DNA of 64,000 nt from Streptomyces sp. NBC_00433 (GTDB lineage: Bacteria; Actinomycetota; Actinomycetes; Streptomycetales; Streptomycetaceae): positions 7,856,001 through 7,920,000 of the forward strand of contig CP107926.1 in assembly GCA_036015235.1 (NCBI GenBank), written 5' to 3'. Both the position numbers and the translations under genes were made by a program. Shown here piece by piece: positions 2,965-8,554 of the stretch. How positions within the stretch are numbered: position 1 is the stretch's first letter; each line of letters begins with the position of its first letter. The notes below the pieces were generated by a model. The model was given only the letters and a program-made list of their open reading frames with translations. It ran no database searches and was not told where the DNA came from.

Positions 2965-4626
2965 TCAAGCCGCTGCTTCCGCCTCCGAGGAGGCCTCCGC
3001 GATGTGTTCGCGCACCCGCGCCTCCGGCAGCCGGGCGCGCAGCGCCAGCAGGTAGACGAGGGCGGCCAGTGCCAGGTTCACCACGAAGCCCCAGCCGAGG
3101 CCGATCCAGCCGCGGCCGCCGTCGTAGTCGCCCGCCCAGCTGGTCAGCGCCAGGCCGCCGAGCCAGGGGAGCACCCAGGTCGCGCCCGCCCGCCAGTCCA
3201 GTCGCGGGCTCGTGCCCCGGGCGGTCAGTTCGAGGACCGCGAGCAGGACGAAGCCGATGCCGATGGTCGCGAAGAGCTTCCAGTTGGTGGTCCAGCCTGC
3301 CCAGTAGACGATCAGGTTCGCCGAGTACAGCCCCAGGAAGGGGATCAGGTCGCCGCCGGGGACCTTGAACGGGCGCTCGTGGTCCGGTATTTGCCGGCGC
3401 ATCGCGGCGAGCACCACGGGACCGGAGCCGAAGGACAGCACCGTGGCGGACGTGATGAAGCCGACGAGCTGCTGCCAGCTGGGGAAGGGCAGGAAGACCA
3501 CGAGCCCGAGCACGAACGTCACGACCAGGCTGACCAGCGGGGCCCCGCGCCGGGTGGTGGTCGACAGGGCCTCGGGCGCGTTCCCGTTGCGCGCCATGGC
3601 GTAGGAGATGCGGGCGGTGACCGTCGTGTAGACCAGGCCGGTGTCGGCCGGGGAGATCACCGCGTCGGCGTACAGCAGGTACGCCAGCCAGCCAAGACCG
3701 ACGGCACTGGCGATGGCCGCCAGCGGGCCGAAGTCGTCGGTGAACTCCAGCTGCAGCCAGCCGCCGGAGGACGCCAGGTCGTGCCCGGGTACGGCGCCGA
3801 GGAAGGCGACTTCGAGCAGGATGTAGATCACCGCGGTGAGCAGCACGGCGCCGATGATCGCGAACGGCACGTTGCGCCGCGGGTTGTCCGTCTCGCCTGC
3901 CAGCTCGACCGCCTGCCGGAATCCCAGGAAGGAGAAGGTGATGCCGGCTGTCGAGATGGCGGTGAAGACGCCCTTGGCGCCGCCCGGCGCGAAGCCGCCG
4001 TACTGCCGGGCGGTGAAGTTGTGGCCGTGGAAGGCGGTGATCAGGAAGGCCGCGATCACCAGCAGGATGATCGCCAGCTTCCACCACACCAGCACGTTGT
4101 TGACCCGGGCGAACCAGCGGATGCCGAAGTAGTTCAGCGCCACGAAGAAGGCCATTGCCACGACCGCGACCGCGTAACCGAGGCCGGTCAGCGTGTACGC
4201 CCCCGACTCGTGGTGGTCGGTGAAGTGCGCCCACCGGGTGGCGTACTGCAGCGCGCCCTCCACCTCGATGGGCGCCACGGTGGCCGCCGCGACCCAGGTG
4301 ATCCACCCCATCGTGTAACTGGCGAAAGAGCCGAAGGACAGGTGCGGGAAGCGCACCACACCGCCGGACACGGGGAACATGGTGCCGAGTTCGGCGAAGC
4401 ACAGGCCGATCAGCAGGATCATCACCGCGGCGATCGCCCACGAGAAGATCGACGCGGGACCGGCCACCTTCGCCGCGTTCAGGGCGCCGAACAGCCAGCC
4501 GGAGCCGATGATGGAGCCGACGCCCGCGAAGAGCAGGCTGACCCTGCCCATGTCTCTGCGCAGCCGCGGCGGCCCTTCGGACGGCCCGCCCGAGGACTTG
4601 TCCGTACGCCCGGAAACCGTGGTCAT
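2965..4626 (-). CDS. APC-family amino acid permease
   Basis: A 553-residue integral membrane transporter with about twelve or more hydrophobic helices. The first helix region carries the APC-superfamily signature GVGSIIGSGWLFG at residues about 34-46, the glycine-rich unwound segment that binds the substrate backbone. It probably imports an amino acid by proton symport; the substrate is unknown. Residues near 240-250 (GITFSFLGFRQAVELAGE) match the conserved helix 6 unwound region of the family. The ATG at 4626 is chosen over an in-frame ATG 20 codons upstream because a GAAGGG purine stretch sits about 10 nt before it. It lies downstream of, and on the same strand as, the HTH-receiver gene but 113 bp away. 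Confidence 0.88.
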   Translation of the reverse strand: MTTVSGRTDKSSGGPSEGPPRLRRDMGRVSLLFAGVGSIIGSGWLFGALNAAKVAGPASIFSWAIAAVMILLIGLCFAELGTMFPVSGGVVRFPHLSFGSFASYTMGWITWVAAATVAPIEVEGALQYATRWAHFTDHHESGAYTLTGLGYAVAVVAMAFFVALNYFGIRWFARVNNVLVWWKLAIILLVIAAFLITAFHGHNFTARQYGGFAPGGAKGVFTAISTAGITFSFLGFRQAVELAGETDNPRRNVPFAIIGAVLLTAVIYILLEVAFLGAVPGHDLASSGGWLQLEFTDDFGPLAAIASAVGLGWLAYLLYADAVISPADTGLVYTTVTARISYAMARNGNAPEALSTTTRRGAPLVSLVVTFVLGLVVFLPFPSWQQLVGFITSATVLSFGSGPVVLAAMRRQIPDHERPFKVPGGDLIPFLGLYSANLIVYWAGWTTNWKLFATIGIGFVLLAVLELTARGTSPRLDWRAGATWVLPWLGGLALTSWAGDYDGGRGWIGLGWGFVVNLALAALVYLLALRARLPEARVREHIAEASSEAEAAA

Positions 4627-4739
4627 GCGCGCCGCCCTTCCGCCGTGCAGCCCGCCGCGGACCCGGGGGCCCAGGGCTGCCTTCACTGGGGCGGCCTGCC
4701 CGGAGATCGGCAGGACATGCCGGCGGCGGCGGCCCCGGG

Positions 4740-5549
4740 TCAGTCCTCCTGGAGGGGGATGGTCGCCGTCTCCAGGAAGAACTGGTCGATGCTGCGCACC
4801 GACTGCAGGAAGTCGTCGAGGTTGACCGGCTTGGTCACATACGCGTTCGCGTGCCGCTGGTAGGCCGCGCTCACGTCGTCGGGCGTGGCCGACGTGGTGA
4901 GGACCACGACCGGGATCGTGCGCAGCGCGGCGTCCTCCTTCAGCACCGCCAGGAGTTCGCGGCCGTTCATCCGCGGCATGTTCAGGTCGAGCACGATGAG
5001 GTCGGGCCGCGCGTGCTCGGGATCGCGCAGATATGCCAGCGCCTCGATGCCGTCGTCGGCCCTGGCGATGTCGCGGGCGACACCGCCGTCGGTGAGCGCC
5101 TCCTCGATCAGCAGGGCGTCGGCCGGGTCGTCCTCGACGAGGAGCACGTGGTAAGCGCGTGGGCGGGCGAGGGCATTCACAACGGTGCTCCTGGTGTTCC
5201 GGTCGGAGATCGGGTGGGGCTGCGGTTCCGCGGTGAAGACCAGCCCCGGCCAGCGGCGCCGGGCGCCCTGGCGGGTGATTCCCCAGGCGCGTCCGAGTTC
5301 GGGATAGCCGGCGCCGCCCAGGGCCGCGGCCGACGCGGCCTCCGCGGCCCGGCTCTCGGTCGCGTGCAGGATGTAGGACAGCACCTGGAGCCGGGTCAGC
5401 GCTGTGCCGGGATCAACGTCCTGACCAGGGCTTTTCTGCTCACTCAGCGCCTCGGCGGCAAGCCGGTCCGCGAGATCGGCCACCGCCTGCTCGGCGCGTG
5501 AGACGAACTCGTCATGGCCGAAGCGGAGGTCGGGCGGCTTGCCGGGCAC
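4740..5549 (-). CDS. HTH domain-receiver domain protein (response regulator; possible second start at 5180)
   Basis: The frame reads without a stop from GTG 5549 to 4740 (269 residues). Residues about 1-123 contain a helical region ending in GYPELGRAWGITRQGARRRWPG, a helix-turn-helix-like segment also seen in actinomycete regulators. Residues about 132-260 form a CheY/Rcp1-like receiver: acidic pair VEDD, phosphoacceptor aspartate in LIVLDLNMPRMNG, and lysine in YVTKPVN. GTG 5180 has an excellent AGGAG 7 nt upstream and would give a free 146-residue receiver, so either a fusion, two isoforms, or only the short form is made. It is divergent from the histidine kinase gene and is its likely phosphorylation partner. 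The receiver call is firm; the N-terminal extension is less certain. Confidence 0.7.
   Translation of the reverse strand: MPGKPPDLRFGHDEFVSRAEQAVADLADRLAAEALSEQKSPGQDVDPGTALTRLQVLSYILHATESRAAEAASAAALGGAGYPELGRAWGITRQGARRRWPGLVFTAEPQPHPISDRNTRSTVVNALARPRAYHVLLVEDDPADALLIEEALTDGGVARDIARADDGIEALAYLRDPEHARPDLIVLDLNMPRMNGRELLAVLKEDAALRTIPVVVLTTSATPDDVSAAYQRHANAYVTKPVNLDDFLQSVRSIDQFFLETATIPLQED
5188..5192 (-). promoter_or_regulatory. Internal Shine-Dalgarno for the receiver-only isoform
   Basis: AGGAG on the minus strand, 7 nt before GTG 5180, inside the frame of the HTH-receiver gene. It is the best ribosome binding site in this gene and marks a possible internal start that would release the receiver domain alone. 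Confidence 0.55.
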
Positions 5550-5555
5550 CTGTGG

Positions 5556-5585
5556 ACTATAGGCAGCGTCCGGATCACCTGACAA
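5556..5585 (-). promoter_or_regulatory. Promoter of the HTH-receiver gene (TTGTCA-18-TATAGT), leaderless
   Basis: On the minus strand TTGTCA (plus 5580-5585) is followed after 18 nt by TATAGT (plus 5556-5561), close to the primary-sigma consensus. The -10 ends 6 nt before GTG 5549, so the mRNA would begin at or next to the start codon. The -35 overlaps an inverted repeat at 5581-5596. Confidence 0.6.
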
Positions 5586-5596
5586 CACCAGTTGTC
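5581..5596. promoter_or_regulatory. Inverted repeat GACAAC-4-GTTGTC, candidate operator
   Basis: A perfect 6-bp inverted repeat with a 4-nt centre lies between the divergent HTH-receiver and histidine kinase genes. It overlaps the -35 of the leftward promoter and sits about 8 bp upstream of a -10-like TACGAT (5604-5609) facing right, so one bound protein could control both directions. The N-terminal HTH of the left gene is a natural candidate ligand; this is inference. Confidence 0.4.
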
Positions 5597-5687
5597 CTGT
5601 AGGTACGATGGCGCCGCCGCCGACCACTCGCGGGTCGTCGCCGGGTTCTCCCGCGACGTGGCATGCGTTGCGCAGGAGGAGAGACCA

Positions 5688-7313
5688 GTGACAGTGGCGA
5701 CCGAAGGACCTGAGAAGGCGCTCGGCATCGGGACGGGCAAACCGGCGGCGATGCCCCGCGACACGGGGCGGTGGACCACGCGGCGCTGGCTGACGACCGG
5801 TGTCGCGGTGTCGCTCACCGTCCTGCTCGTGCTGGGGCTCGCGGGCGGCTGGGCGCTCAACCGCGCCACCTCGCTGTCCGGCACGGTGATCGACGAGGAC
5901 ACACCGGCGCTGGTCTCGGCGGTGCGGCTGGAGAATTCGCTGACCGACCAGGAGACCGGGATCCGGGGCTACGGGCTGACCGGCCAGCCCAGCTTCCTGG
6001 AGCCCTACCGCGCGGGTCTCGACGACCAGCGCGCCTACACCACGCGGCTGCGGACGCTGCTGGCGGGCAACGCGGCGGCCGTCGCGGACCTCGACGCGGT
6101 CACCCGGCAGGCCGATGCGTGGCAGCAGCTCCTCGCCCGGCCCGTGGCCGCGGCGCCGCCCGGCGCCCCGGTCGCCCTGGCGGCGGAGCGCGCCGACGAG
6201 GGCAAGCGCGCCTTCGACAGCGTGCGCGCCGCGACCACCGGCCTCGAACAGACCCTCCAGCGGCACCGCGACCACTCCCGCAACGAGCTGAACGCCGCCG
6301 GGCGGGTCCGCGACCGGATATTCCTGCTGATCGCGGCAGTGATCCTGCTCCTGACCGCCGCGGTGTTCGTGGGACTGCGCCGCGGTGTCACCCGCCCGTT
6401 GGGGGAGCTGTCGAGTGACGTACGCCTCGTAGCCGACGGCGCGTTCGAGCACCCGGTGACCCCGACGGGGCCCGCCGACCTGCGCCGGCTGGCCGGCGAC
6501 GTCGAGCAGATGCGCGGCCGGCTGGTCCACGAGCTGGCCTTCACCGACACCGCACGGCAGCAGCTGGACGAGCAGGCCACGGACCTGCGCAGGTCGAACG
6601 AGGAACTGGAGCAGTTCGCCTACGTGGCCTCGCACGACCTCCAGGAGCCGCTGCGGAAGGTCGCGAGCTTCTGCCAGCTGCTGCAGCGCCGCTACGCCGA
6701 CCAGCTCGACGAGCGCGCCGGGCAGTACATCGGCTACGCCGTCGACGGCGCCAACCGCATGCAGACCCTCATCCACGACCTGCTGGCCTTCTCCCGGGTG
6801 GGCCGGCTGCACACCGAGACCTCGCCGGTCGACCTCGAAGCGCTGTTCAACCGCACCATCGACGCCCTCAGCATCGCCATCGAGGAGTCTGGCACCGAGC
6901 TGACCCACGACCCGCTGCCCGAGGTCGTCGGCGACCGCACGCAGCTGGGGGTGCTGCTGCAGAACCTGCTGTCCAACGCGGTCAAGTTCCGCGCCCCGGA
7001 CCGCCCGGCACGCGTCGCCGTCACCGCCTCCCACCACGATGACGGGATGTGGCATTTCGCGGTCACCGACAACGGCATCGGGATCAAGGCGGAATTCGCC
7101 GAGCAGGTCTTCGTCATCTTCCAGCGGCTGCACACCCGCGAGACCTACTCCGGCAACGGCATCGGCCTGGCGCTGTGCAAGAAGATCGTCGAATTCCACG
7201 GCGGGGCCATCGCGGTCGACACCGGCCACGGCCCCGGCACGCGCATCACCTTCACCCTGCCGGGACCCGCTCCGGTCCCGGCGACGGTCGCGACTGAGGA
7301 GAGCCAGGAGTGA
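5688..7313 (+). CDS. Sensor histidine kinase (CHASE3-HAMP-HisKA-HATPase)
   Basis: A 541-residue membrane sensor kinase. A helix at residues about 36-57 and a second at about 209-229 bracket an extracytoplasmic helical CHASE3-like domain ([15 protein letters not shown] is typical). HAMP follows to about 283. The dimerisation/phosphoacceptor motif [14 protein letters not shown] puts the histidine near residue 316; this [16 protein letters not shown] form is shared with Cph1-type phytochrome kinases. The ATP-binding domain has the N box (NLLSNAVKF, about 425), G1 (DNGIGI, about 461) and G2 ([14 protein letters not shown]). GTG 5688 has GGAGGAGAG just upstream. It overlaps the next gene by 4 bp, so the two are translationally coupled. 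The signal is unknown. Confidence 0.92.
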
Positions 7314-8554
7314 CGCAGGCGCAATCCGGTGCGGCAGCGGTGCCGACCGGCGGCAGACTCCGCATTCTGCTGATCGAGGACGATCCGGGCGACGCGCTGC
7401 TGGTCGAGGAATACGTCGCCGAGTCCACCCTGGACGTCGAGATGCGCTGGGTGCAGTGCCTCGCCGACGGCATGGCGGAGGCGGCCCGCAGCACCCCCGA
7501 CTGCATCCTGCTCGACCTGCACCTGCCCGACGCCATGGGCCTGGGAGCGGTCGCCCGGATCCAGGCCGTCAGCCCCGCGGCGGCCGTCATCGTCCTGACC
7601 GGGCTCTCGGAGGACCGGGCAGGTCCGGAGGCCGTCGCCTCCGGCGCCCAGGACTACCTGGTCAAAGGCGCGGTCACCGGCGAACTCCTGGACCGGGCGG
7701 TCCGCTACGCCGTGCACCGCAAGCAGGCCGAGCACACCGCCGCGGAGCTGCGCGTCAACCAGCAGCGCGCGCAGGAGAACCAGCGCCTGGAGCGCGGGCT
7801 GCTGCCCGTCCCGATGCTCTCCCCGGGCGCCCCGGTCCGCCCGACGTCCTGCTACCTGCCGGGCCGCGAGGGGGCGCTGCTGGGCGGGGACTTCCTCGAC
7901 GTGGTGGAGACCGCGGACGGCACCGTCCACGCCGTCATCGGCGACGTCAGCGGCCACGGGCCCGACGAGGCGGCGATAGGGGTGTGCCTGCGCATCGCCT
8001 GGCGCTCCCTGATCCTGGGCGGCCACCGCAACGGCGAGCTGCTCGCCCTGATGGACCGGATCCTGATCGCCGAGCGCCCCTACCCCGCGATGTTCGCCAC
8101 CGTCGCGACGCTCTCGATCGACCGCGCGGTCGGCCGCGCCGACGTCACCCTCGCCGGGCACGACGCCCCGCTGCTCATCGAGAACGGGGTCGCCGCCTCC
8201 GTCGAGGCGCAGCCGGGGATAGCGCTCGGCCTGATCCCCGAGGCGAACGACTGGACCACCACGAGGGTCAAGCTCCCGCCTTCCGGCGCGCTGCTGCTGC
8301 ACACCGACGGCCTGATCGAGGGCCACGCGGGCAGCGGACCCGAGCGGCTCGGGACGGACGGCCTGGTCCGCGTGATCAAGGCGGCGCCGTCCCCGTGGGG
8401 CCAGGCGCTGATCGACCACCTGACCGCCGTCACCCGCGGCCTCGACGGGGGGCGCCACCTCGACGACGTCGCCGTGCTGCTGCTGGGCTGGGGCGCCACC
8501 GGTTCCGACGGCCGGTCCCCGGGGGGCGCTGTCCCGCCGCCGAGGAGCCCGTAG
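7310..8554 (+). CDS. Response regulator with SpoIIE/PP2C-type Ser/Thr phosphatase output
   Basis: A 414-residue protein. Residues about 18-135 form a receiver domain: acidic IEDDPGD, phosphoacceptor aspartate near residue 69 (LLDLHLP), and lysine in YLVKGAV. A coiled linker (residues 140-165) leads into a PP2C/SpoIIE domain with metal-binding aspartates in GGDFLDVV (about 193), GDVSGHG (about 211) and [10 protein letters not shown] near the end. Such proteins dephosphorylate anti-anti-sigma factors (STAS proteins), linking a kinase to partner-switching control. The start ATG overlaps the kinase stop by 4 bp, and the kinase is its evident input. No anti-sigma or STAS gene is in the window, so its target lies elsewhere. 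Confidence 0.92.

Follow-up and report, generated by a model that had tools for sequence, protein, structure and literature searches.

How does a gene operate in which a helix-turn-helix (HTH) part is fused ahead of a receiver, with a second start codon lying between the two? We addressed this question for a gene of Streptomyces sp. NBC_00433 located in a 64,000-nucleotide stretch of DNA (the window; positions 7,856,001–7,920,000 of the 8.99-Mb genome), from an organism whose nearest named relative among the genomes scanned is Actinacidiphila cocklensis. The HTH-receiver gene (4740..5549, minus strand) encodes a long form of 269 residues. Its frame begins at GTG 5549 and runs uninterrupted to a stop at 4740, which confirms the preliminary description, and it comprises an HTH part and an intact receiver. 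Pfam Response_reg matches both residues 135–251 of this long form (E 7.4e-23) and the 146-residue short form that would start at GTG 5180 (4740..5180, minus strand; E 2e-23), with a score of 81.3 bits against a gathering score of 30.2, and residues D140, D141, D188, T218, Y237 and K240, among them the acidic pair D140/D141 and the phospho-acceptor D188, are each present in all 45 fused rows of the alignment. The receiver is thus C-terminal, the opposite order to that of classical DNA-binding response regulators (OmpR, NarL and NtrC types), in which the receiver comes first. The nearest NCBIfam models to the receiver, EpsW and CheY, both fall far below cut-off; residues 1–123 match nothing in Pfam or NCBIfam (E up to 1), and no Pfam domain besides the receiver is found in the long form at E up to 1, Clp_N included.

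An open frame is weak evidence here, and we did not accept it as proof of a gene: upstream of GTG 5549 it continues without a stop as far as 7229 (829 aa), where it runs antisense to the kinase. This longer frame (4740–7229, minus strand) results from G+C-rich codon use, and would lure a gene caller to a far-upstream start. What carries weight is conservation: relatives repeat the V/M-P-G start, the promoter spacing and the fused frame. In particular, four close relatives (L002–L005) are fused at the same place, which makes a sequencing error hiding a stop between the domains very unlikely.

Upstream of GTG 5549, the only sigma-70-like match within 4500–6000 (5585–5556; mean 0.0 in 50 shuffles) consists of a -35 TTGTCA (5580..5585, minus strand) and, 18 nt on, a -10 TATAGT (5556..5561, minus strand). 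The GTG begins 6 nt after this -10, so the long-form mRNA should be leaderless. To place these elements in context we examined 129 loci, 77 distinct ones of which carry this HTH directly before this receiver. The spacing recurs among them: in 70 of 76 loci a TAnnnT lies 17–18 nt past the TTGTCN arm, and in 66 of 76 the first ATG/GTG follows that -10 by 6–7 nt. The -35 lies within the right arm of a palindrome, the putative operator GACAAC-N4-GTTGTC (5581..5596), which reads GACAAC-TGGT-GTTGTC from 5596 to 5581, occurs in exact form once in the 8.99-Mb genome, and precedes the HTH with at most one mismatch in all 77 loci (70 exact). A chance palindrome was rejected: the best sites in random 155-nt stretches mostly had 4–6 mismatches, and the 75 of 3000 stretches with 0–1 mismatch include the operators themselves, as the stretches were drawn from the fetched loci.

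The same palindrome also adjoins a second, divergent gene. A kinase with CHASE3, HAMP, HisKA and HATPase domains by Pfam (5688..7313, plus strand) starts, by our reading of the sequence, at GTG 5688 behind AGGAGG, and its stop is overlapped by a gene for a receiver-SpoIIE (PP2C-type) phosphatase (7310..8554, plus strand; Pfam). Divergent CHASE3-HisKA kinases are found in 57 of the 58 named loci listed, the 58th being cut by a contig end, and a receiver-SpoIIE homologue in 46 of these 58. A putative -10 for the divergent kinase promoter, TACGAT (5604..5609, plus strand), has counterparts in the other loci: kinase-facing TAnnnT motifs 8–10 nt from the operator gave 59 hits in 77 loci, compared with at most 3 at any one offset in shuffles. 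For this kinase-facing promoter we spotted no good -35. Separately, in one genome (G018) an exact operator (L139:1549-1564) precedes a CHASE3-type kinase that stands alone, the 3.1 kb retrieved around it containing no receiver gene.

From this arrangement we infer a scheme of binding, repression, phosphorylation, two products and an effect of the free receiver, and we think it likely, though well short of certain, that the gene encodes a receiver-bearing self-repressor acting on the 5581–5596 site and also yielding a free receiver. The putative operator would most likely be gripped by the HTH-receiver protein itself, its N-terminal HTH, of the ClpC2/RelI kind, binding the single palindrome as a dimer. 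Bound protein would mask the -35 element of the leaderless promoter from which it is itself expressed and abut the divergent kinase promoter and, since the site covers the one and adjoins the other, the long form would be expected to damp its own synthesis and probably that of the kinase. Phosphorylation of the C-terminal receiver by the kinase would then alter dimerisation or DNA binding and so readjust how much of the system is made. Translation initiated internally, at AGGAG/GTG 5180, would additionally yield the receiver alone, which does not contact DNA but may take a share of the phosphate or dimerise with the long form, and could thereby unload phosphate or form half-dead dimers. The preliminary description had proposed the domain order, the leaderless long form from a consensus-like promoter and the inner-start short form, all of which our analysis supports as sequence-based readings; it did not mention the operator, the kinase gene on the other side of it or the kinship of the HTH with that of ClpC2, and it is these three that suggest that the DNA-binding part serves mainly to repress its own gene.

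Several observations count against the self-repressor reading. Seven of 21 further HTH copies have no such site, 32 of the 77 loci lack the covalent link, and Foldseek returned no significant solved fold for the HTH model, as detailed below; furthermore, among 19 receiver loci that are linked to a kinase but have no intact HTH, 5 keep the site. The operator is centred at -39.5 from the start codon in 39 of 76 loci and at -40.5 in 19 of 76, with tight phasing to the -10, and -39.5 is also a class II activator position. The long form might be a self-activator that recruits RNA polymerase from the same site in class II fashion, with phosphorylation switching the system on, and a kinase-facing promoter with a -10 and no evident -35 would suit such a role. 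We nevertheless judge this unlikely. The studied relative, ClpC2, acts as a repressor in the portions of its description available (PMC10030653), and the HTH-less loci also bear on the point: in the 14 that have lost the site, none keeps GACAA and 9 keep TTGTC together with a -10, so the promoter appears to outlive the HTH and not to need it, which argues for repression over obligatory activation.

We next consider the inner start, which lies in a stretch predicted to be disordered (residues 107–128; 5166..5231, minus strand; pLDDT below 50 in the fusion model), the flexible linker between the two domains. The Shine-Dalgarno motif AGGAG (5188..5192, minus strand) is placed 7 nt ahead of GTG 5180. 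GGAG or AGGA occurs 3–11 nt before the receiver start in all 45 fused genes, against an average of 0.17 expected under synonymous codons for the same residues, and other in-frame ATG/GTG codons of those genes have such a motif in only 25 of 474 cases. On these counts the inner start is kept for its own sake in fused genes, and the receiver alone is probably made as well as the long form. An alternative holds that only the fusion is made and that the inner motif is a relic of a split ancestor; such an ancestor is possible, given that 32 of the 77 loci are split, but a relic would scarcely be expected to persist in every fused gene across two fused groups, nor to be spelled in the window with the rare codon AGG, and we regard this alternative as unlikely.

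Comparison of the loci also answered the question, raised at the outset, of whether HTH and receiver are ever separate genes. They are fused in 45 of 77 loci (a biased share, since the fused protein served as the query in locating them and at most 80 loci from named genomes were taken), in frame with a stop between them in 11, and out of frame in 21. In the receiver tree, 26 fused rows including that of the window group together with weak support (77/88), 18 form a firm clade (100/98), and one (L063) sits beside a split row, with all phases mixed among the split rows. The linker measures 90, 96, 99, 102 or 105 nt in one fused group and 78 or 81 nt in the other, all multiples of three, compared with 12 different lengths in every phase among split loci (L099 was left out of the linker and HTH alignments, and L027, L051 and L091 have no linker length), so the fused frame is maintained. 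Some orthologues of the receiver lack the HTH. In split genomes the two parts are encoded by overlapping genes, which shows the covalent HTH-receiver link to be optional, and since 32 of the 77 loci do without it, phospho-control of DNA binding in cis is not essential.

To assess which protein goes with the site, we searched genomes for the HTH and the exact palindrome. Across 35 genomes of the genus, 14 had both, 2 the HTH only, 2 the site only and 17 neither; the corresponding counts for 200 genomes of the family were 40, 8, 17 and 135 (p = 1e-20, with p values that treat genomes as independent and leave relatedness uncorrected). All 8 family genomes with the HTH only have a one-mismatch site at the HTH. 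The 27 exact sites in the genus were distributed among HTH-receiver genes (16), receiver-only paralogues in HTH-bearing genomes (4), a stand-alone kinase of the CHASE3 type (1) and other places (6). As for the 5 HTH-less kinase-linked loci that keep the site, three (L131, L135 and L086) have an HTH elsewhere in the genome, L109 looks like a recent HTH deletion, and L019 belongs to a genome without the HTH at the search cut-off. The exact site is likewise kept, in HTH-bearing genomes, by three receiver-only paralogues that have no kinase beside them (L132, L133 and L134). Note additionally that these counts contain duplicates in upstream DNA (L015 equals L062, and L087 equals L133).

Some of these data would fit a palindrome that is read by another regulator and merely accompanies the gene, for instance the 17 of 200 genomes in which an exact site occurs but no strong HTH match, and 7 of 21 further HTH copies that have no such site within 400 nt. 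Each of these 7 is a second copy, and the first copy in its genome does have the site. Against this reading, HTH loss accompanies site loss at the same locus, the receiver-only loci L132–L135 keep the exact site with the HTH elsewhere in the genome, and clpC2 has its own variant of the palindrome, making a different regulator quite improbable. The 7 palindrome-less copies lie in six loci (L148, L149, L152, L155, L158 and L159), some behind a shared GACCAGTA-type promoter, and may use another operator. In a further locus (L169) an HTH copy with an exact operator looks frameshifted, its halves lying in two frames, and the receiver gene near it (L086) has its own exact operator and no HTH.

The AlphaFold2 model of the HTH region (residues 1–114; 5208..5549, minus strand) has a mean pLDDT of 87.3 and comprises two long helices followed, by DSSP, by the helix-turn-helix proper (residues 82–99; 5253..5306, minus strand), with helices at 82–89 and 93–99 separated by a turn; Y82, G86, R93, Q94, A96 and R97 are invariant in 67 sequences. 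Against a ClpC2 profile built from 7 sequences only, the HTH profile aligned over 45 columns with an hhalign probability of 92.3 (E 5.5e-7), and the best solved relative was RelI (PDB 9sdc; E 5.4e-5, profile positions 46–102), so the HTH is related to those of ClpC2 and RelI. In the window genome, the gene clpC2, encoding a Clp_N protein, holds the only other relative of the HTH at E up to 0.05, and both genomic copies of GTCAAC-N5-GTTGAC lie directly upstream of it. Other searches returned little: Foldseek with the HTH model gave 0 matches at E up to 0.001, the 67 HTH members had only weak scattered matches in Pfam and NCBIfam (HTH_23 in 11 of 67, best E 0.03), and the HTH was unmatched among 72,556 plasmid records. 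The best VIA-align match, a Plasmodium surface protein (Z 5.0), was taken as a shared helix arrangement only. That the HTH frame goes untranslated and the gene is a lone receiver started at GTG 5180 is scarcely credible, for although HTH-less orthologues exist and G+C bias opens the frame anyway, 14 HTH columns are invariant across the 67 sequences, the fold is modelled confidently, and the start codon and leaderless promoter are conserved.

We also observed this HTH in other protein contexts. In L183 (1027-1959) and L184 (1076-2008) the same kind of HTH is fused ahead of a methyltransferase in genes whose start looks leaderless, with GGCAAC-N4-GTTGCC directly upstream of the L184 gene and a stretch resembling it in L183. 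Four loci (L170–L173) encode uncharacterized HTH proteins of about 200 aa, at whose starts between one and three palindromes (GACA..TGTC or CAAC..GTTG) extend up to the start codon. Finally, in five loci (L164–L168; genomes G180, G192, G176, G164 and G089) this HTH lies at the C-terminus of apparently TetR-like proteins, a label given by our own reading of the sequence, with two GACAAC-N4-GTTGTC palindromes at the 3' end, the first overlapping the stop codon.

Each ingredient has been seen before: receivers, HTHs of the ClpC2 type, leaderless genes, internal starts. What is new to us is finding them combined, together with the private operator and the record of fused and split loci. Among the CC-licensed PMC papers that our searches listed, we found no description of a system with an N-terminal HTH and a C-terminal receiver, nor any account of the palindrome, of receiver isoforms, or of CHASE3/SpoIIE proteins in Streptomyces that matches this one. 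A broader reading, which we put forward tentatively and hold to be possible rather than probable, is that ClpC2-type HTHs form a large class of private actinobacterial self-repressors, of which this gene is the two-component member with a translational switch. Each HTH would then be paired with a near-unique leaderless palindrome of the form xxCAAC-gap-GTTGxx and a plug-in sensing domain (Clp_N, receiver, methyltransferase or others). This gene alone would add a switch by which one mRNA gives a DNA-bound long form and a free receiver, the latter an antirepressor or phosphate sink for the former, reached or kept in two fused clades, with other lineages running overlapping genes. If true, nature would here offer a compact design for comparing fused with split versions of one regulator across dozens of species, the conserved operator, promoter and kinase permitting a direct test of what covalent linkage of DNA binding and phospho-reception adds. 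ClpC2 would go from a single case to one of a class of self-operator modules, and the operator code, GACAAC-N4-GTTGTC vs. GTCAAC-N5-GTTGAC, would be of use for work on protein-DNA specificity.

Among known systems, the receiver resembles single-domain response regulators such as CheY and EpsW in having all phospho-transfer residues, and differs from them in that a DNA-binding part precedes it here in fused lineages; Rcp1 is another single-domain response regulator. The closest precedent for the isoforms is AerR of Rhodobacter capsulatus, a signalling regulator which, in the sections of its description available, has long and short forms of opposite effect through an internal start (PMC6199135). 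It is, however, an unrelated B12 photoreceptor whose forms differ by 41 residues from an inner CTG start, and it acts through CrtJ without an HTH of its own, again according to those sections (PMC6199135). RelI shares the HTH match given above; it is the antitoxin of RelS-RelI in M. tuberculosis, a toxin inhibitor with no receiver, and the excerpted account relates it to the ClpC2 HTH and leaves a transcriptional role open (PMC13284704). ClpC2 differs in several respects, as far as the available excerpts of its description go (PMC10030653): its partner domain is the cyclomarin-binding Clp_N and not a receiver; its palindrome has a gap of 5 and outer letters GT..AC, compared with a gap of 4 and GA..TC here; two sites touch its start codon, against one at -40; and those excerpts mention no inner start such as the one predicted here. 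The likenesses are a related HTH and near-identical palindrome letters, with a CAAC-gap-GTTG core over the elements of its own leaderless promoter; in the same excerpts ClpC2 has an apparently leaderless gene and CGTCAAC-n5-GTTGACG sites, and is proven to repress itself, as is proposed here (PMC10030653).
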